This document shows, one piece after another, positions 3,130-13,441 of a stretch of DNA of 64,000 nt. This DNA is from Tautonia plasticadhaerens. GTDB taxonomy: Bacteria; Planctomycetota; Planctomycetia; Isosphaerales; Isosphaeraceae. Below the pieces are notes generated by a model. It was not told where the DNA came from, did not search any database, and saw nothing but the letters and a program-made list of their open reading frames with translations. Position 1 is the stretch's first letter, and each line of letters opens with the position of its first letter. The stretch covers positions 7,564,001-7,628,000 of the forward strand of contig NZ_CP036426.1 in NCBI RefSeq assembly GCF_007752535.1, given 5' to 3'. A program made the translations under genes and the position numbers.

Positions 3130-6099
3130 TCATCGGAGCGACTCGAGATAGGCGAGCAGGTCGGCCGCCTGCTGGGCGGTCAGGTCGGCCAGCTGGCCGT
3201 CGGGCATCAACGAGACCAGCGAGGGGCGGAGTTCCTCCACCTCGTCGGCCGGGAGGACGACCTGCTTGCCCTGGCCGTCCCTCAGGACGACGGCGTGTTC
3301 GTCGCGATCGACCAGCAGGCCGGTCACGAAGCGGCCGTCCGTCGTGGCCGCCGCATAGGAGGCGAATTTCGGCTCGATCCGGCGCGACGGCTCCAGGAGG
3401 CTGTCCAGCAGGTCCTCCCGAGAACGAATCGCCCCGATGTTCGACAGGTCCGGCCCGACCGGGGTGCCCCGGTCCCCGATGCGGTGGCACGTGCCGCACT
3501 GGACCGGCTGCGACCAGAACAGCTCCTCCCCCCGGGCCGGGTCGCCGTCGAGCGACAGTACGGCTCGGGGCCGGGCGACGGAGCCGAGCGTCCTGCCGGC
3601 CCCGCCCTTCGACGGCAGATAACCCTCGAACAGCTCCCGGATCGGGCCGGCGGGGAGCCCCGCCGCCTCGGACATCACCGCGTCCCGATCGGGGGGGGCC
3701 AGCTCTCCCCGGCCGACCTCCCGGGCCAGTCGCATCGCGTCCGAGGGGCGTGCGAGATCCCGACCCGGCGCGTCGCCGCCCGGGCTCCCGCCCTCCCCTC
3801 CCTCACTCGAGCCCAGCTGGGTGATCCAACGGGCGACGAGGTCCAGGCCCTGCTCGTGGGGCCGCTCGGAGCCGATGTGCGGCATCCGGTCGCGGCCGAA
3901 CTTGGCCATCCGGAAGTACAGGGTGCTCGCGTACGGGTCGCCGGGCGCGATGATCCGGGCGTCCGGCAGGCCGAAGTCGCCCCGGGTGGGAGGGATGCCG
4001 ACGGCGTTCATCCCGTCGACCGGGGTGGGTGACTTCAGGCGGAGCGGGACCGCCCCGCCGCCGTGTTCGGAATGGCAGTGGCCGCAGTTGGCGTGCAGGT
4101 AGGAGAGGGCCCTCGCCTCGATCGGCTGGCCCTCGTCCGTCGGGTCGGCGAGCCTCGGCTCGGACGCGGCCGACTCGTCGTCGAACGGCGGCAGCGTGCC
4201 GTCCTCGTCGTCTGCCCGCCGGATGAGCCCCGCCTCGGTGAGCGCCACGAGCTGATTCCGCCCATCGTGCCCCGGCCGATTCAACTGCTCGGGGAGGAAC
4301 GCGAGCGCGTAGTCCGACTGGTTGCTGTGGCACGACATGCACTGGCTTCGACTCGGGAACTGCCACACGCGACCGGGCCCCTCGCCGGGCAATTCCAGCT
4401 CGCCCCCCTCGGAGGGCACCAGGTCGGCGTCGGACTGGTCCGATCGCCACGCGAAGGTGTAGGCCCGCCAGTCCACGCCGTCATAGTGCAGAAGCTGCGT
4501 CTCCAGCCGCCTCCCCCCCAGCGAGAGGGTCCGCACCAGCACCGCGTCCTTCGGGAAGTGCATGCGGAAGGAGTGCCAGGAGACCAGGCCGGGGATCGGC
4601 TTGCCGTCCTCGTAGAACGTCGCGGAGGAATCGCCGGGGAAGGCGACCCAGCGCTCCGCCGTCGCCCCGTCCAGCCACTGGGGGCTGTTCACGTCGTAGG
4701 GGACCACCCCCTCGGCCGGCTCGTGGTCCTCGACCGAGGCGAAGAGCCCGGTCTCCGAGAGCGTCGTCGGGAAGTCGGCGGCCCCGGCGGCGCCCTCGTC
4801 CCGTTCCAGGGTGTGGACGGTGCCCTCCTCCTGGTCGAGGAAGTAGAGCTCCCCCTCCCGGTCCTCGCAGAAGGCGACGAACCGCACCGACGGGCGGGCG
4901 ATCTCGGTCATCTCGGTCGTGCGGTCCCCGTCGAAGCGGGCGGCCCAGAGCCGCCGCGTCTCCCAGTCGCCGAAGACGTACGCCCCGCGCAGCTCCGGGA
5001 ACCGCCCGCCCCGGTAGACCAGGCCGCCGGTGACGCTGCAGGCGATCGAGTGCGGCAGCTCGATCAGGGGCGGGTGGATCGGCGTCGGCCCGACCTGCCC
5101 CGACTTGATCGGCTGGGGCCCCTCCATCGCCGACCAGCCGTAGTTGCCGCCCTTCTCGACCCGATGGACCGACTCCCAGAGCTCCCAGCCCACGTCCCCG
5201 ACGAACAGCTCGCCGGTCTCTCGGTCGAAGCTCATCCGCCAGGGGTTCCGCAGGCCGTACGCCCAGACCTCCGGCCGCGCCCCCTCGACGGCGACGAACG
5301 GATTGTCCGCGGGGATGGCGTAGTTCTTCCCCTCGGCCGTCCGGTCCACGTCGATCCGCAGGATGGACGAGAGCAGGTCGGAGATGTCCTGGCCCGTGTT
5401 GAACGGGTCCGGGGGGTTCGGGCTCGCCGCGTCTCCCGAGGAGATGTAGAGCATGCCGTCCGGGCCGAACCGGAGATCCCCGCCGTTGTGGCCCCCCTGG
5501 AGGAAGGAGAGGATGATCACCTCGGTGGAGGGGTCGATCCGGGGGGGATCGGTCCGGGTGACCTCGAACCGGGACACGCGGGTCCCGTCCGGGAGGTTCG
5601 GCCGCCGGGGGTCGGAGCCCCTCAGGGTATAGCTGACGAAGCAGTGCCGGTTCCGCTCGAAGTCCGGGTGGAAGGCCAACCCGTAGACCGCCTCGACCCC
5701 CTCCGCCCCGTCGAGGAGGTGGACCGTCTCGAGTTCCCCGGGGAGGTCCGCGAAGGGCTCGGCCCTGGCGTCCGGCCCGTCGGCGAACGAATGCAGGACG
5801 CCGGATTGCTCCCCGACGACGAACCGGTCGCTCCCGGGGACCCGGGCGATGAGCAACGGGTGCTCGAATTTCAGGCCCGGGAACGCGCGCACGACGGCGA
5901 ATGGCGGCGGCGGGTCGGGCGAACCCGAGACCCGGGAGGTCGTCCAGGGCGTCCGGCCCGGGCTCCCCTCCCCTTCGGCACCGGGGCCGGCCCCTTTGCC
6001 CTCGGCCGATCCTCGCCACGCGATGTGCCCCGCCGCGAGCAGCAGGGGCGCGATGGTCGTGAGGCGGAGCATGATCCGGAACGACGATGGCGGCATCAT
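3130..6099 (-). CDS. PQQ-type sugar dehydrogenase fused to multiheme cytochrome c domains
   Basis: Large exported oxidoreductase-like protein, 989 aa. A hydrophobic N-terminus (about residues 10-27) acts as signal or anchor. Residues ~65-430 form a six-bladed glucose/sorbosone dehydrogenase (GSDH) propeller with GGHNGGDLRFGPDGMLY and GLRNPWRMSFD. Residues ~440-780 resemble the SO2930-type diheme domain, with CMSCH near 587 and CGHCH near 672. The C-terminus (~850-989) is a Pirellula/Verrucomicrobium-type heme domain with CGTCH near 868. Three covalent hemes are predicted, so electrons could pass from sugar oxidation to heme inside one chain (inference). ATG at 6099 is preferred over GTG at 6105 because GGAG lies 5 nt before it. 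Confidence 0.85.
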   Translation of the reverse strand: MMPPSSFRIMLRLTTIAPLLLAAGHIAWRGSAEGKGAGPGAEGEGSPGRTPWTTSRVSGSPDPPPPFAVVRAFPGLKFEHPLLIARVPGSDRFVVGEQSGVLHSFADGPDARAEPFADLPGELETVHLLDGAEGVEAVYGLAFHPDFERNRHCFVSYTLRGSDPRRPNLPDGTRVSRFEVTRTDPPRIDPSTEVIILSFLQGGHNGGDLRFGPDGMLYISSGDAASPNPPDPFNTGQDISDLLSSILRIDVDRTAEGKNYAIPADNPFVAVEGARPEVWAYGLRNPWRMSFDRETGELFVGDVGWELWESVHRVEKGGNYGWSAMEGPQPIKSGQVGPTPIHPPLIELPHSIACSVTGGLVYRGGRFPELRGAYVFGDWETRRLWAARFDGDRTTEMTEIARPSVRFVAFCEDREGELYFLDQEEGTVHTLERDEGAAGAADFPTTLSETGLFASVEDHEPAEGVVPYDVNSPQWLDGATAERWVAFPGDSSATFYEDGKPIPGLVSWHSFRMHFPKDAVLVRTLSLGGRRLETQLLHYDGVDWRAYTFAWRSDQSDADLVPSEGGELELPGEGPGRVWQFPSRSQCMSCHSNQSDYALAFLPEQLNRPGHDGRNQLVALTEAGLIRRADDEDGTLPPFDDESAASEPRLADPTDEGQPIEARALSYLHANCGHCHSEHGGGAVPLRLKSPTPVDGMNAVGIPPTRGDFGLPDARIIAPGDPYASTLYFRMAKFGRDRMPHIGSERPHEQGLDLVARWITQLGSSEGGEGGSPGGDAPGRDLARPSDAMRLAREVGRGELAPPDRDAVMSEAAGLPAGPIRELFEGYLPSKGGAGRTLGSVARPRAVLSLDGDPARGEELFWSQPVQCGTCHRIGDRGTPVGPDLSNIGAIRSREDLLDSLLEPSRRIEPKFASYAAATTDGRFVTGLLVDRDEHAVVLRDGQGKQVVLPADEVEELRPSLVSLMPDGQLADLTAQQAADLLAYLESLR

Positions 6100-6327
6100 T
6101 TCCACTCCGAGCGCGGACCCCGTCGGGGACGGTCACGAGCGGGGAGCATTGTATCCGCTCGCGCCCCGATGGCGAATCATGCGGCCTCCCGTCGCAATCC
6201 CAACCGAAATGCGTGAGGACATGATGCCCCCTCCGTGTCGGGACGGGGCGTCCGTCGCGGGACTGAGTCCGGAGTCGCGCAGCCCGAGGCCGGCGGGCTC
6301 GAAGTTCGTGCGGGATCGGGGACGAGC

Positions 6328-6355
6328 TTACATCGCCGGTCCCGGCGCGTAATAA
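6328..6355 (+). promoter_or_regulatory. Candidate promoter for Tat-exported protein gene
   Basis: TTACAT (6328-6333), 16-nt spacer, TAATAA (6350-6355), 48 bp before the ATG at 6404. This is the only AT-rich patch of the 304-bp gap between the two divergent genes; nothing else was seen there. Confidence 0.35.
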
Positions 6356-6403
6356 TCGGGGGCACGACGCATCACCCGCTCCCCGAGCCAGGGAGGATCG
6401 ATC

Positions 6404-7933
6404 ATGTCCTTTCCACTGGATCGACGTCGGTTCCTGCGATCGGCCGCGACGGGAGGCGCCCTGGCGGGACTGGGCGACCTGGCCTTCCTCTCCCGCCTCC
6501 GGCCGGTCTCGGCCGAGGAGGCCCGCCTCGACCCGGACGTCGTCCGCCTCCGACCCGAGATCGAGCCGCTGGTCCGACTCATCGAGCAGGCCCCTCGCGA
6601 TCGGTTGCTGGAGGAGGTCGCCGGCCGGCTCCGGCAGGGGACCGGCTACCGCGAGGTCCTGGCGGCGCTGCTGCTGGCCGGCGTGCGCAACGTCGAGCCG
6701 AGGCCGAGCGTCGGCCACAAGTTCCACGCGGTGCTGGTGGTCAATTCGGCCCACCTGGCCAGCCTCGGCTCCCCGGACTCCGACCGCTGGCTGCCGATCT
6801 TCTGGGCGCTGGACTACTTCAAGTCGTCGCAGGCCGAGGACGATCGGGAACGAGGCTGGACGATGGCCCCGGTCGACGAGTCGGCCGTCCCCCCGGCGCG
6901 CAAGGCCCGGGAGGCGTTCCTCGGGGCGATGGGGCGCTGGGACGAGCCGGCCGCCGACGCCGCCGTCGCATCGCTGGCCCGCACGGCGGGCTTGAACGAG
7001 ACCTACGAGCTGTTCTTCCGCCTTGGCGCCCGCGACTTCCGCTCGATCGGCCACAAGGCGATCTTCGTGGCCAACAGCTACCGCACCCTGCAGTGCATCG
7101 GCTACCAGCACGCCGAGCCGGTTCTGCGATCGCTCGCGTACGCCCTGCTGATGCACGAGGACGGCAACCCCGCCGAGCGAGACGCCCCGGCCGACCGCCC
7201 CTGGCGGCAGAACCAGGAGCGGGCGGGGCGGATCCGTGAGGACTGGCGCGGCGGCGACCCGGACCCCGGGGCGACGGCCGAACTGCTGGACGTGCTGCGG
7301 TCCGGCACCGAGGAGGATGCCCCCGAGGCGGTCGTGGATCTCCTGAACCGCGGGGTGGCGCCGCAGTCGATCTGGGACGCGCTGCTCGGCGGCGCCGGGG
7401 AGCTGATCATGCGGCAGCCCGGGATCGCCTCGCTGCACGCCGCCACCTCGACGAACGCGCTGCACTTCGCCTACCAGGCCAGCCACGACGACGAAACGCG
7501 GCGGCTCCTGATGCTCCAGAATGCCGCGTTCCTGCCGATGTTCCACGAGGAGATGACGCGAAGGGGCGAGGTCCGCGACCTCCGGATCGACATCCTGGAG
7601 CCGGAGTCGACCGCCGAGGGCGGGGCCGGGGCGATCGAGGAGATCTTCGCCGAGGCCGGCCGCGATCGGACGGCGGCCGCCCGCAAGGCGCTGGCCTACC
7701 TCCAGGCGGGCCAGGACCCCCGGGATCTCATCGACGCGGCCCGGCGACTGGTGTTCCTCAAGGGGAACGACTCGCATGACTACAAGTACAGCTCGGCGGC
7801 GTTGGAGGACTACGACCACGCCTCGCCGGCCTGGCGCGACCGCTACCTGGCCAGCAGCCTGTTCCTCCTGCCGGCGTCCGGGGACGAGGACAACGGCCTG
7901 GTCGAGCGGACCCGGGCGGCCCTCCGCGCGTGA
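6404..7933 (+). CDS. Tat-exported protein of unknown function
   Basis: A 509-aa protein that I do not recognise. Its N-terminus is a textbook twin-arginine signal: RRRFLRSAA at residues 7-15 followed by a short hydrophobic stretch ending near SAEEA, so it is probably exported folded. The mature part is mostly alpha-helical and histidine-rich in places (VGHKFHAVLVVNSAHLA, QCIGYQHAEPVLRSL, LHAATSTNALHFAYQASHDD), which would suit a metal or cofactor site, but no catalytic signature stands out. Similar long helical Tat proteins are common in planctomycetes. It is followed by a hairpin at 7989-8023 and stands as a single transcription unit. Confidence 0.8.
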   Translation: MSFPLDRRRFLRSAATGGALAGLGDLAFLSRLRPVSAEEARLDPDVVRLRPEIEPLVRLIEQAPRDRLLEEVAGRLRQGTGYREVLAALLLAGVRNVEPRPSVGHKFHAVLVVNSAHLASLGSPDSDRWLPIFWALDYFKSSQAEDDRERGWTMAPVDESAVPPARKAREAFLGAMGRWDEPAADAAVASLARTAGLNETYELFFRLGARDFRSIGHKAIFVANSYRTLQCIGYQHAEPVLRSLAYALLMHEDGNPAERDAPADRPWRQNQERAGRIREDWRGGDPDPGATAELLDVLRSGTEEDAPEAVVDLLNRGVAPQSIWDALLGGAGELIMRQPGIASLHAATSTNALHFAYQASHDDETRRLLMLQNAAFLPMFHEEMTRRGEVRDLRIDILEPESTAEGGAGAIEEIFAEAGRDRTAAARKALAYLQAGQDPRDLIDAARRLVFLKGNDSHDYKYSSAALEDYDHASPAWRDRYLASSLFLLPASGDEDNGLVERTRAALRA

Positions 7934-7988
7934 AGGCCGAATACCCAGGGGGTGACCGGCCCTTATGCCTTGATCTTCGCCGGGAGGG

Positions 7989-8023
7989 GATGGGGGTGGG
8001 GGATGGGCCGAATCACCCCCATC
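7989..8023 (+). terminator. Terminator-like hairpin
   Basis: GATGGGGGTG (7989-7998) pairs perfectly with CACCCCCATC (8014-8023) around a 15-nt loop, 56 nt after the stop of the Tat-exported protein gene. No U-tract follows. Confidence 0.45.
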
Positions 8024-8499
8024 GCCCCTCGCGCGGCGACGCGATGACATCCTCACGGCCACCGGCCGATCCGCGGGGAGCAGCGGCCCCCGGGGCCGGT
8101 GCTGGATCGCGAACGCGCCTCGGAGGACCCGCCCAACACCTCGGCATCGGCCGCGCCCACACCGCACAGCCCCGGCAATCGGCGACGATGCGGGCCCGTC
8201 GACTCGCCCGGGGAGGGGCGTGCGATGACCCCGGGCTCGACGATGATCCGTCCCGACTCGGGCCGACGCCCGCGACCGGACGGACGCCGGAGGGCGATCG
8301 ATCCCCGCTCGGCCCGCCCCCGGGGGCCATTCCTCGCCTCCGTCCCTGGGCGACCGGCCGGGCATCCCCCTCCCCCCGTCCGGCGGTCGACGAACCGGGC
8401 CCAGGCCGGCCGCCTCGCCCGGCAGGTCCCCACGGGCATCCGGGGCGTGGATGCCTCCCGGTCAGCGAAATTGTCGAGGGGATTCGCCCGAATCCCGCT
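8024..8499. other. Long non-coding stretch
   Basis: Part of the 863-bp gap between 7933 and 8797. Reading frames across it are arginine/proline-rich on both strands with no signal peptide, family resemblance or ribosome binding site, as expected of chance open frames at this GC content. No repeat or RNA-like structure was made out. The gap ends in an AT-rich promoter candidate. Confidence 0.5.
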
Positions 8500-8796: not shown

Positions 8797-10158
8797 ATGA
8801 GCCGATCGAAGCAGGGATTGGCCGTCCTCTCCCGCGTCCTCATCCCGGCCGCGACGTTGCTGACGATCGCGGCACTCCCCGCGGCCGAGGCCGGGGAACT
8901 CCCCCGGGCCACCGAGAAGGTCAAGGTCCTCGTCCCGGCTTACTTCTACCCCACCTGGTGGGTGGGGTCCCCCTGGGACGACCTCAATCAGGCGGCCTCG
9001 CAGATCCCGATCGAGGCCATCATGAACCCGGCCAGTGGCCCCGGCAACGCGCCAAACCCCGACTACCTCCAGGCCGTCGCCGACCTCCAGGCGGCGGGGG
9101 GGAAGGTCATCGGCTACGTCCCCACGGGCTACGGCTCCCGGCCGATCGGGGACGTGATGTTCGAGATCCAGGCCTATCTCATCTGGTATGACGTCGACGG
9201 CATCTTCCTCGACGAGATGGGCGATCAACTCGGCACCCTGGACTACGAGTCCGTCTACTGCCTCATCAAATTGTACCAATTTGCCGTTGGACACAAGCTC
9301 CGCGTCGTCGGGAATGTGGGGGTGCCGTTCCCGGAGGCCGAGGCCTACCTGGATGCGACCGACACGCTGGTCATCTTCGAGGGGCCGCTGTCCAATCCGG
9401 AAGTCGTGATCGATTTCGAGGAACTCCCGATCCCGCCGGGCGGGGCCTTCGCCCCGGGCCTCTATCAGGATCCGGGCCAGGAGTTCCAGGTGTCCGCGGT
9501 GGCCCCGAACGGCTTCCTCTCGACCTACTACGCCCGGGAGGCGGGCTCGGGGGGGTTCTACGCGGGCTCGAACGCCATCGGCGCGAGTACCGAGGCGACG
9601 ATCACGCTCAACCGCCTCGACTTGCAGCCGTTCTCGCTGAGGTCGATCGACGTGGCCCGCTACTTCATCTGGAACGAGGGCAACGACCCCGTCACGCTGA
9701 CCTTCACCGGGCAGCGGGCCGGCGGCGGGACGGTCCAGCAGGCCTTCACCGTCCAGGCCCCCATCGGCACGCAGGCGTTCGACACCTTCTCCTTCTCGGG
9801 CTTCACGAACCTGACCTCGGTCACCTGGCAGCAGGAATCCGGCCCGGCCGGGGTCGAACACCAGTTCGACAACATCAGGCTCGAGCGCATGGGGGCCAAC
9901 TTCGACGCCTATCCGACCGAGGCGCCGTACGACGGCCTGGACCCCTGGTTCCTGCAATACCGGCCCAGGCGGTTCGCGAATTTGGTCTACGACGTGCCGA
10001 CCGCCGACGACATGGAGGACGCGCTCGACAAGGCGATCGAGGACAATGCCGGCTACATCTTCCTGACCGATGACATCCTCTCCAACCCCTGGGACACCCT
10101 GCCGGCGTATTGGGACGAGGAGGTCGAGGCCATCCGGGAGTTCAACTCCTCGGAGTGA
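8797..10158 (+). CDS. Secreted spherulin-4-like protein with inserted beta-sandwich
   Basis: A 453-aa exported protein of the spherulation-specific family 4 (Spherulin4), the TIM-barrel family that includes the fungal GH135 galactosaminogalactan hydrolases. Residues 1-32 are a signal peptide ending in AAEAG. The barrel starts at KVLVPAYFYP and shows MNPASGPGN, VIGYVPTGYG and GIFLDEM. At about residue 202 it is interrupted by ~165 residues of beta-rich sequence (VIDFEELPIP to FDNIRLERMG) that look like a jelly-roll or PEP-CTERM-associated domain, after which the barrel resumes (YIFLTDDILSNPWDTLP). The next gene is a paralogue without the insert. Start ATG 8797 precedes the signal peptide directly. 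A glycosidase role is inferred from the family only. Confidence 0.8.
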   Translation: MSRSKQGLAVLSRVLIPAATLLTIAALPAAEAGELPRATEKVKVLVPAYFYPTWWVGSPWDDLNQAASQIPIEAIMNPASGPGNAPNPDYLQAVADLQAAGGKVIGYVPTGYGSRPIGDVMFEIQAYLIWYDVDGIFLDEMGDQLGTLDYESVYCLIKLYQFAVGHKLRVVGNVGVPFPEAEAYLDATDTLVIFEGPLSNPEVVIDFEELPIPPGGAFAPGLYQDPGQEFQVSAVAPNGFLSTYYAREAGSGGFYAGSNAIGASTEATITLNRLDLQPFSLRSIDVARYFIWNEGNDPVTLTFTGQRAGGGTVQQAFTVQAPIGTQAFDTFSFSGFTNLTSVTWQQESGPAGVEHQFDNIRLERMGANFDAYPTEAPYDGLDPWFLQYRPRRFANLVYDVPTADDMEDALDKAIEDNAGYIFLTDDILSNPWDTLPAYWDEEVEAIREFNSSE

Positions 10159-10541: not shown

Positions 10542-11888
10542 ATGCTATCGATGACCTGCTCCTGCAAGGGAGAATTCTGGGTCAGGGATCGACTCGCGGG
10601 GAACTCGACCCCCTGCCCATCGTGCGGCCTCTCCCTGGACGTCCCGCCATTCGAGACGGTCCGGGCGGACATGACCCCCGCGACGTGCAGTTGCGGGGAG
10701 ATCTTCTGGTCCTCCGCCTGGCAACCCGGGAAGCTCTCCAGGTGCCCGATCTGCGGCGACGTGGTGGGCCCCTCGGAGTCGGCCGGCGAGACCACGGTGA
10801 TCCTCCCTCCCCAGTCGATGCACACGCCCGGCCCGGCCCTCAAGGCGCAGGGCGGGCCAGCACAGCCGATCCACGCTCGGGAGCAGCCCGACGCCCGGGG
10901 GACCGCGGGGCAGACGACGGCCGCGAGCACGACGGAAACCCCTCCCGCCGACAAGCCGGAGGAGCGGGGTCGGCGGCTCGCATCGGCCGGGGCCGCGGTC
11001 CTCCTGTTGGCGGCCGGCGTCCTCCTCGGGTCTCGATGGGCCGGTCCCCTCGAGAATGACGACCCCGGCTCCCCCCCCGTCGCCCCGAGGGAGGGTGGAG
11101 AGGGGCGCCGGGAGGTGGACGCCTGGCCCCCCCCCAGCCCGATCGATCAGGGGCCCCAGGCCCCCTTGAAAATCCTGGTCCCCGCCTATTTCTTCCCCGC
11201 CGCCTCAGGGCTGGACGACTGGAAACGCCTGCTCACCTCGGCGAGGCGGGTCCCGATCGTCGCGGTCGTCAACCCCGCGAGCGGGCCCGGTGAGTTGCCC
11301 AACCGGGACTACGCCGACATCGTGCGCGGGGGCACCGCCACCGCCGGGCTCACGATGATCGGGTACGTGAACACCGCGTTCGCGACCCGCCCCCGCCCGG
11401 AGATCGAGGCCGACATCGATCGTTGGGTCCGATTCTATCCCGAGATCCAGGGCATTTTCCTGGATGCACAATCCAGCGAAGGCCAGAATGAGGACTTCTA
11501 CGCCGACCTGAGCGATTACGTGAGGCGGTCGATCGACGGCGCGATCGTCGTCACGAATCCCGGGACGGCCTGCGCCGAAGGCTACTTCGAGTCCGGGGCC
11601 GCCGACATCGCCATCGTGTTCGAGAACTCCCACGGTTTCGACGAATTCGAACTCCCCCTCTGGAGGTTTCGCTACCCCCCCGGGCGGTTCGCGGCCGTGC
11701 CGTATGCCGTGAAGACGGCGGAGGCGATGGAAGACGCCATCCGGCAGGCCGGCGAGAAGGGGATCGGGTACCTCTTCGTCACCGACGGCGTCATGCCCAA
11801 CCCGTGGAGGAGCCTGCCACCTTACTGGGCCGAGTTGGTGGACGCCGTCGAGGCGGTCAACGCCGGACCTCCGCGGGAGGGCCTGTGA
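10542..11888 (+). CDS. Membrane-anchored spherulin-4-like protein with zinc ribbons
   Basis: A 448-aa paralogue of the preceding gene with another architecture. Residues 1-70 hold two zinc-ribbon-like units, each CxC followed ~16 residues later by CPxCG or CPICG. After a Pro/Thr-rich linker comes one membrane helix (RLASAGAAVLLLAAGVLLG, about residues 145-165), then a complete spherulin-4 domain from KILVPAYFFP to NPWRSLPPYW. The family motifs VNPASGPGE, MIGYVNTAF and GIFLDAQ match those of the upstream protein. Predicted topology is N-in, barrel outside: cytosolic zinc ribbons coupled to an extracytoplasmic carbohydrate-active-type domain. GGGGGA lies 7 nt before the ATG. Function unknown beyond family. 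Confidence 0.8.
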   Translation: MLSMTCSCKGEFWVRDRLAGNSTPCPSCGLSLDVPPFETVRADMTPATCSCGEIFWSSAWQPGKLSRCPICGDVVGPSESAGETTVILPPQSMHTPGPALKAQGGPAQPIHAREQPDARGTAGQTTAASTTETPPADKPEERGRRLASAGAAVLLLAAGVLLGSRWAGPLENDDPGSPPVAPREGGEGRREVDAWPPPSPIDQGPQAPLKILVPAYFFPAASGLDDWKRLLTSARRVPIVAVVNPASGPGELPNRDYADIVRGGTATAGLTMIGYVNTAFATRPRPEIEADIDRWVRFYPEIQGIFLDAQSSEGQNEDFYADLSDYVRRSIDGAIVVTNPGTACAEGYFESGAADIAIVFENSHGFDEFELPLWRFRYPPGRFAAVPYAVKTAEAMEDAIRQAGEKGIGYLFVTDGVMPNPWRSLPPYWAELVDAVEAVNAGPPREGL

Positions 11889-12037
11889 ACGGGGAGGGAA
11901 TCGGCCATAATTGGAGGCTGGCCTCGGTTGGGTGCGGGTGACCCTCGCGCCGCCCCCGGGGGCCGGTTGGGGCCGGATGCCGTCGGCCACCCCGGATGAC
12001 GGGGCGATCCCCCCACTCGTATCCCGTTTCGGGCAAG

Positions 12038-13441
12038 ATGCGCCCCATGGTGGTCAATCCGGAGCTTTCGAAGTTCTGGCAGGCGGCGATCCGCAGCGGG
12101 ATGCTGGACGCCGACGGGCTCGCGTACTGCCTCGAGGGGATCGCCCCGGAGCGCCTGACCCCCAGGGGGCTGGATCGCCGCCTCGCCCGCCAGGCGGTCG
12201 CGATCGGGAGGATCACGCCCTGGCAGGCCCAGCAGCTCCTACTCGGTCGCTGGAAGGTCCTGAGGATCGGCAAATACGAATTGCTCAGGCCGATCGGCAG
12301 CGGGGGGATGGGGGACGTCTACCTGGCCCGCGACACCACGCTGGATCGCAAGGTCGCGATGAAGGTCCTCTCCGGCGAGCAGGGCAGGAACCCCCGGGCG
12401 ATGGCCCGCTTCGACCGGGAGGCGAGGATCGCCGGCCAGCTCCAGGACGAGCACCTGATCCGGGTCTTCGACTTCGGGGACGCGGCCGGGGCCCGCTTCC
12501 TCGTCATGGAGTACGTCGACGGCGAGAGCGTGTCCCGGCTCATCGAAGGGCACGGGGCACTCCCCCCGGGGGCCGCGGCGGAGGTTGGCCTGCAAGTGGC
12601 CCTCGGCCTGGAGTACCTGAACCTCAAGGGGACGCTGCACCGGGACGTGACCCCCTCGAACATGCTCGTCGACCGGGGAGGCACCGTCAAGCTGGCGGAC
12701 CTCGGCCTGGCGATCGACTTGGACGACGCGGAACGCCTCACCCGCGAGGGCTCGACGATCGGCACGTTCGACTACCTGTCGCCCGAGCAGGCCAGCAATT
12801 CGCGGGGGATCGGCATCCAGAGCGACCTCTACTCGCTGGGGTGCAGCCTCTATCACATGATCGCCGGGCAGGTCCCGTTCCCCGCCCCCACGCTGCCCGA
12901 AAAGCTGGTCGCCCATCGACTCACCGAGCCCGCCCCGCTCTCGGACCTGGCGCCCTCCTGCTCGCCGGCGCTCGACGCGGTCATCCGCCGGATGATGCAC
13001 AAGGCGCCCGAGGCCCGGTACGCCCGGCCCGCCGACGTCGCCTCGGCCCTCGAGCCGTTCGCCTCGGGATCGGCCACCCTCGGTCGGATGGTCTCGATGG
13101 GGGGGGCCAGGACGTCGGCGTCGTCCCCCGAGACCGTCGAGGCCTTCATCGTCCAGTGGCTCGAATCCGATCCCGAGCCGGAGCTCGACGAAAAACCGAG
13201 TGCCCCCGTGGCCCATCCGGCCACCCCGGAGGTCTTCCCCGTGATCTACGTCGAGGCGGGGACCGCCACGGCGGGGGGCTCGCCGGGCGGCCCCCCCCCG
13301 ATCGGCCCGGGAGGACGGATCGGGGCCCGTCGGGCCGAGGCGAAGGCGCAGCGTCCCCTCGCGATGATCCCGGGATCCCTCTCCCGATTCGTCCGGCGGT
13401 TCGCCGCGGGGCTGGGTCGGCGGATCGGCGGACGGCGATAG
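12038..13441 (+). CDS. Ser/Thr protein kinase, planctomycete type
   Basis: Eukaryotic-like kinase, 467 aa. An N-terminal ~80-residue helical extension ending WQAQQLLLGRW precedes the kinase fold, an arrangement typical of planctomycete kinases. Gly-rich loop GSGGMGDVY from residue 87; ATP-anchoring lysine K109 in VAMK; catalytic loop HRDVTPSN with D203 (V in place of the usual L/I); DLG at 221-223 instead of DFG; LSPEQ in the activation segment. All residues for activity are present. The C-terminal ~130 residues are low-complexity, with a basic helix at the very end and no clear membrane span, so it is probably cytosolic. It converges on an FHA-containing histidine kinase, a plausible phospho-Thr partner (inference). 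ATG 12047 is an alternative start. Confidence 0.9.
   Translation: MRPMVVNPELSKFWQAAIRSGMLDADGLAYCLEGIAPERLTPRGLDRRLARQAVAIGRITPWQAQQLLLGRWKVLRIGKYELLRPIGSGGMGDVYLARDTTLDRKVAMKVLSGEQGRNPRAMARFDREARIAGQLQDEHLIRVFDFGDAAGARFLVMEYVDGESVSRLIEGHGALPPGAAAEVGLQVALGLEYLNLKGTLHRDVTPSNMLVDRGGTVKLADLGLAIDLDDAERLTREGSTIGTFDYLSPEQASNSRGIGIQSDLYSLGCSLYHMIAGQVPFPAPTLPEKLVAHRLTEPAPLSDLAPSCSPALDAVIRRMMHKAPEARYARPADVASALEPFASGSATLGRMVSMGGARTSASSPETVEAFIVQWLESDPEPELDEKPSAPVAHPATPEVFPVIYVEAGTATAGGSPGGPPPIGPGGRIGARRAEAKAQRPLAMIPGSLSRFVRRFAAGLGRRIGGRR

Follow-up and report, generated by a model that had tools for sequence, protein, structure and literature searches.

The gene studied here lies in a stretch of 64,000 nucleotides from Tautonia plasticadhaerens (the window). 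Its product is a spherulin-4 protein in which a long beta-rich segment separates two parts of what is elsewhere a continuous domain. The locus raises the question of whether this segment is a separate domain lodged in the barrel, to what it is related, and what it might do beside the active site. A sequence-only reading had proposed a separate beta-rich, PEP-CTERM-associated domain within a spherulin-4 barrel, on its catalytic face. The homologues of the segment, an AlphaFold model, and the loop spacing bear this out: as sequence and model show, the (beta/alpha)8 barrel is of the GH135 type, and a beta-rich domain breaks it between beta6 and alpha6, in a loop of the catalytic face. The features of the locus are collected in Table 1.

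Table 1. Features of the insert-bearing gene, its neighbors, and the second locus of the same genome. Positions are those of the window, except in the last three rows, which are positions within the second locus.
Feature	Position	Strand	Basis
Spherulin-4 (PF12138, GH135-like) gene with inserted domain, 453 aa	8797..10158	+	PF12138 match and ORF
Probable Sec signal peptide, aa 1-32, ...ALPAAEA	8797..8892	+	by eye
Barrel part 1, beta1 to beta6, aa 41-202	8917..9402	+	PF12138 profile 1-164; AlphaFold
Asp139, aligned with the conserved Asp of Sph3	9211..9213	+	alignment
Glu195, aligned with the VVFE glutamate of Sph3	9379..9381	+	alignment
Inserted beta-sandwich-like domain, aa 203-365, kin to PEP-CTERM/QFxxD proteins	9403..9891	+	homologues, models
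Barrel part 2, alpha6 to alpha8, aa 366-453	9892..10155	+	PF12138 profile 178-239; AlphaFold
Adjacent spherulin-4 paralogue without insert (P0002)	10542..11888	+	PF12138 143.6 bits, one stretch
Ser/Thr protein kinase; kinases also adjoin zinc-ribbon spherulin-4 genes at the second locus and in relatives	11996..13441	+	Pkinase 6.9e-44
Free-standing insert domain, 3.61 Mb locus (L031)	3460-4131		longest frame
Zinc-ribbon spherulin-4, 3.61 Mb locus (L031)	4257-5621		longest frame
Kinase, 3.61 Mb locus (L031)	5530-8202		longest frame

Position of the insert in the barrel

The reading frame of the insert-bearing gene is open from 8653, and its likely start is the ATG at 8797. Judged from its sequence, the protein is probably secreted. 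It matches PF12138 with 133.8 bits over two stretches (Pfam cut-off 30.2), the first covering profile positions 1-164 (residues 43-199 from the ATG at 8797) and the second profile positions 178-239. The Sph3 motifs FDE and VVFE align with FLDEM (Asp139) and VIFE (Glu195), respectively. These are the catalytic residues expected at the C-terminal edge of the barrel in this fold. Among the 146 distinct spherulin-4 domains from fetched loci, the Asp column is occupied by D in all 146 and the Glu column by E in 135.

The extra stretch has ~163 residues (aa 203-365) and lies between beta6 and alpha6. The ~165 residues that had been noted at 9400-9900 agree with these boundaries, which correspond to nucleotides 9403-9891. 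The earlier end points hold in part: the barrel of the neighbor is uninterrupted, but the insert stops 64 barrel residues (alpha6, beta7, alpha7, and beta8) before NPWDTLPAYW, where the barrel had been taken to resume. Similarly, the adjacent paralogue P0002 is a valid uninterrupted comparator but not the closest one, and it falls elsewhere in the tree. The closest uninserted relative is a spherulin-4 from another genus of the same family (L023), whose barrel is 61% identical over 245 positions and pairs with the insert-bearing barrel at 100/100 support (in this barrel tree, the row named L027 duplicates L008). The segment LVIYEGPLQNADPNGASFRMYP is unbroken in L023, while the insert-bearing protein reads LVIFEGPLSNPE, then the insert, and then GANFDAYP.

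When the insert is subtracted, the loop has 37 residues compared to 39 in L023. With the insert, 200 residues separate the catalytic Glu from beta7, versus 22-39 (median 25, sd 2.5) in the 146 distinct spherulin-4 domains, which are what is left of 166 hit rows after the removal of 11 incomplete rows (including the split rows of the insert-bearing gene) and nine identical repeats. In the (beta/alpha)8 fold, the beta-alpha loops lie on the catalytic face.

The structure prediction suggested by the sequence-only reading was run on the insert-bearing protein and gave a confident Sph3-like barrel and a separate, low-confidence beta domain. The whole-protein AlphaFold2 model, built from a 50-row alignment, has a mean pLDDT of 72.8. 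Taken per block of ten residues, pLDDT is 69-98 for the barrel between model residues 11 and 170 and 79-96 from residue 351 onward, the very first block being weak; for 171-350 it drops to 35-70. The predicted order, in model residues, is beta6 at 158-165 (with the Glu at 163), the beta-rich insert at ~171-333, alpha6 at 351-355, and beta7 at 361-366. The best solved match of the model is Sph3 (5c5g), with a Z of 26.0, an rmsd of 2.4 Å over 228 residues, 27% identity, and a Foldseek E of 2.6e-10. The possibility that the insert is part of the barrel or a C-terminal domain is ruled out by the split PF12138 match together with the AlphaFold model.

Short repeats are present, and the 3' junction falls within one arm of an imperfect inverted pair (81%). 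No direct repeats pairing the two insert junctions were found, and capture with target repeats was therefore rejected.

Kin and predicted fold of the insert

The insert matches two further places in its own genome, 3,614,049-3,614,531 (E 1.7e-20, 40%) and 3,719,994-3,720,440 (E 3.1e-15, 40%). At each place lies a free-standing gene whose product starts like a signal peptide and, by eye, ends in a PEP-CTERM tail. The domain is present in six of the 45 genomes of the order and in eight of the 392 of the phylum sample, with the own genome counted in both. Frames were read for 16 relatives of the insert, a count that leaves out one relative not recovered (L137). By eye, a PEP-CTERM tail closes ten of these and a similar VPLPPA tail another; neither is present in two, and the last three lie in long frames together with other domains.

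The insert matches positions 76-161 of the NCBIfam profile NF038120 (PEP_CTERM_QFxxD) with 21.5 bits, and the whole protein does so with 18.3 bits, both below the cut-off of 80. The same profile matches eight of 12 insert-family members, with a best value of 8.9e-15. Membership of the insert in a Pfam family was rejected, as it has no Pfam match up to an E of 1. Nor do 11 of the 12 family members, the other one matching DUF5818 at 0.088. A search for solved relatives of the insert by sequence gave only weak matches (a ubiquitin-conjugating enzyme at 0.006, antibodies, and a few others), none of them credible. No match to the insert was seen in phages, and no relatives of it in viral contigs. 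The insert tree (17 rows) singles out no donor, and the nearest sequence by both tree path and BLAST belongs to another genus (L045) rather than being an own-genome copy. By sequence kinship, the insert is an independent beta-rich domain related to PEP-CTERM surface proteins near NF038120.

Folded alone from one sequence, the insert is predicted to have ten strands (pLDDT 57, pTM 0.55). The 50 Foldseek matches listed for this low-confidence model have query TM-scores of 0.28-0.44, and a carbohydrate-binding module, alone or within an enzyme, accounts for 29 of them. These 29 include CBM22, 16, 61, 4, 6, 30, and others, several being repeats of the same family. By Z, a Bdellovibrio protein ranks first (8.7), ahead of phage tail parts and, further down, of CBMs, toxins, and capsids. 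The CBM-like reading of the insert is not specific, since fiber, phage-tail, toxin, and capsid folds score alike. The model fits a jelly-roll without pinning down a family. The FDNI ending of the insert may resemble the last strand of CBM4/9-like domains.

Distribution and gene neighborhood

Spherulin-4 is present in 17 of 45 genomes of the order, 12 of 392 of the phylum, and 62 of 397 of the class. These counts include the own genome, and the sets overlap. The search for other spherulin-4 proteins with an internal insertion, proposed with the original observation, found none in the genomes scanned: no second split of the same kind was seen in the order, phylum, and class scans. Places of the class scan for which no locus was fetched were judged on their match rows, which cover either nearly the whole profile at normal length or part of it. 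Two partial matches, one at a contig end (L026) and one whose frame is lost past the point (L020), read through the insertion point without an insert, and six further odd, partial, or long-frame matches of the class scan also have none (L178 is broken over two frames). Three congeneric genomes were scanned and gave no spherulin-4 match.

Sampling outside the phylum consisted of 80 of 146 relatives' loci, ten plasmid matches, and seven viral loci. The 80 loci gave 83 barrel-bearing open frames, none of which has a large insert. Only one of these frames (L129) was matched in two pieces, with ~17 residues between them and at another place. Ten plasmid records match the whole insert-bearing protein, none covering 80% of it. 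Among the genomes examined, the architecture was found in one only, with no sign of conservation.

Some other arrangements of spherulin-4 were seen along the way. Acidovorax and Paracidovorax have tandem spherulin-4 gene pairs (L109 5001-7029, L117 5001-7086, and L126 5001-7241). In four class relatives (L172, L173, L181, and L182), spherulin-4 domains occur in very long frames of 1753, 1785, 3318, and 1877 aa, respectively, and seven IMG/VR contigs (L141-L147) carry spherulin-4 relatives.

In the window, the spherulin-4 gene with the insert is followed by a zinc-ribbon spherulin-4 (P0002) and a Ser/Thr kinase. At the 3.61 Mb locus, the order is a free-standing insert domain, a zinc-ribbon spherulin-4, and a Ser/Thr kinase. 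P0002 has two zinc ribbons and a membrane segment before its barrel (by eye; zinc-ribbon profiles match only below cut-off). In the tree, it pairs with the copy that the genome has at 3.6 Mb (93/78 support), apart from the insert-bearing gene. The insert domain is thus fused to a spherulin-4 at one locus and adjacent to one at the other, which suggests a functional link between the two. The chance of such closeness (~1.5 kb) is ~0.001 by simple post hoc arithmetic with two free-standing copies and two spherulin-4 loci in 9.4 Mb. Closeness of the two was seen only in the own genome. Five more genomes of the order carry the insert domain, and in these the reported spherulin-4 places are distant from it or on other contigs, or no spherulin-4 was found.

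A zinc-ribbon spherulin-4 also stands beside a kinase-type gene, in another orientation, in L150, L151, and L152, and a kinase-like ORF follows a spherulin-4 in L149 (these kinases were assigned by motif or eye). The neighborhood of zinc-ribbon, membrane-anchored spherulin-4 and Ser/Thr kinase-type genes, whose orientation varies between several genomes of the same family, makes a signaling link possible. Elsewhere in the window, the product of 6404-7933 (509 aa) has a twin-arginine-like N-terminus (RRRFLRSA) and matches nothing in Pfam at 0.001.

Possible functions and known precedents

Our main reading, to which we give a probability of about 0.45, is that a GalNAc-polymer hydrolase has taken up an exopolysaccharide-binding module at the rim of its active site. 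The scheme that we infer takes in secretion, the activity and substrate of the barrel, the ligand of the insert and its binding, the effect on catalysis, and the order of events. The secreted GH135-type barrel would act on an exopolysaccharide containing GalNAc, in the way that Sph3 hydrolyzes galactosaminogalactan. By binding the same or an associated polymer, the inserted domain would keep the chain at the entrance to the active site and may thereby narrow which substrate, or which part of a substrate, gets cut. The fusion would go back to a free-standing PEP-CTERM domain gene, one copy of which entered, in frame, a loop whose length in this subfamily was considerable beforehand.

The own genome has two strong and one weak exosortase matches and 42 PEP-CTERM matches at an E of 0.01. 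The PEP-CTERM/exosortase system has been tied to exopolysaccharide in PMC1569441, and these matches are fitting for a surface or exopolysaccharide setting. PelG was not found in the own genome. The uninserted planctomycete spherulin-4 proteins L027, L033, and L034 end in PEP-CTERM tails (by eye), and spherulin-4 enzymes therefore seem to be sorted by that system themselves in relatives.

A wider and more tentative version of the main reading extends to the whole family. The QFxxD-type PEP-CTERM beta-sandwich would be an exopolysaccharide-binding module, which forms a composite substrate channel where it is captured into the GH135 active-site rim and remains a neighboring protein at the second locus. 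We know of no function for the QFxxD-type PEP-CTERM surface protein family; if the binding-module reading is true, this would be the first. The fused and adjacent arrangements hint at a ligand for a group of PEP-CTERM surface proteins.

It is also conceivable, with perhaps somewhat less in its favor, that the insert is an adhesive or scaffolding surface domain, which tethers the enzyme to the extracellular matrix or to PEP-CTERM partners without binding the enzyme's own substrate or affecting catalysis. The insert family consists mostly of free-standing PEP-CTERM proteins and sometimes of long repeat proteins, and the insert-bearing protein has no PEP-CTERM tail of its own (its C-terminus reads ...EVEAIREFNSSE), so the insert could replace the anchoring. 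For such a purpose, however, a terminal position would suffice, and a domain that served only as an anchor would hardly be expected in the loop next to the catalytic Glu.

We consider it unlikely that the insert is a lid or specificity subdomain, whose bulk closes the cleft and alters the substrate or the product length without being a binding module. It begins eight residues past the predicted catalytic Glu195, as a lid might, and the CBM35 inserted in GH66 enzymes has been described as supplying distant subsites and setting product size in PMC5408701. On the other hand, a whole recognizable domain with free-standing homologues exceeds the needs of a lid, and the insert is modeled at too low a confidence to be placed relative to the barrel.

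Even less probable is that one lineage acquired the insertion by accident, to no effect or to its harm, and that the gene is a decaying copy whose protein does little. The restriction of the architecture to one genome, with no spherulin-4 in the three congeneric genomes scanned, would agree with this, as would the departures at two conserved barrel columns, Val174 (Pro in 45 of 49 others) and Glu182 (Tyr in 48 of 49 others). The frame is nevertheless intact, and the catalytic residues are kept. Across the 49 other barrels, 42 columns reach a conservation of at least 90%, and the gene retains 40 of them (30 of the 32 that precede the insert and all 10 that follow it). Third-position GC is also similar in insert and barrel (0.90-0.96), and the codon index of the insert (0.84) is no lower than those of the barrel parts (0.72 and 0.81). 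Finally, an assembly error joining two genes, a caveat of the original observation, can be ruled out for practical purposes, given two in-frame junctions in one loop, a remaining loop of 37 versus 39 residues, uniform composition, the resumption of the barrel with conserved residues, and a contig of 8.67 Mb.

Among known systems, Aspergillus Sph3 (GH135; PDB 5c5g and 5d6t) is the closest to the barrel described here, sharing its fold and having Asp and Glu at the same places. It differs in aligning through the loop without an inserted domain and in its low identity. The Sph3 aspartate is reportedly Asp166 in the work of Bamford in 2015. In PMC12054363, the aspartate is printed as Asp196, Glu222 is named catalytic, and the spherulin-4/GH135 enzyme group is said to have few characterized members. 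Sph3 can digest biofilms, according to PMC11356417. The NF038120 PEP_CTERM_QFxxD family is the counterpart of the insert through the shared part of the profile, which most of the insert relatives also match. In contrast to that family, the insert has no PEP-CTERM tail, is located inside an enzyme, and scores below cut-off.

The sequence-only reading knew of no description of this architecture. This holds for spherulin-4/GH135, for which no description of an inserted domain was found in the open-licence literature, but not for barrels in general, as GH66 and GH10 enzymes share the design. In GH66 cycloisomaltooligosaccharide glucanotransferases (3wnk, 3wnn, and 5x7g), a jelly-roll module, CBM35, is likewise inserted in a beta-alpha loop of a (beta/alpha)8 barrel, where it supplies distant subsites (PMC5408701). 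There, it occupies the seventh loop rather than the sixth, the enzyme and module families are different, and binding has been shown, whereas here it is putative. In the Foldseek search with the whole model, 3wnn came third and 3wno fourth, at a low TM-score. In GH10 Xyn10C-like xylanases, binding modules also break the barrel sequence, with two CBM4 between beta3 and alpha3 in PMC7848910. There, the modules occupy the third loop, are two in number, and are spread among gut Bacteroidetes, as opposed to one domain in one genome here. Because CBM35 in GH66 and CBM4 in GH10 are already known, the present insert-in-barrel is a variant of a known design, which is new within spherulin-4/GH135 and so far comes from one genome. 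As a natural GH135 protein with an accessory domain beside the active site, it shows where this barrel tolerates one.
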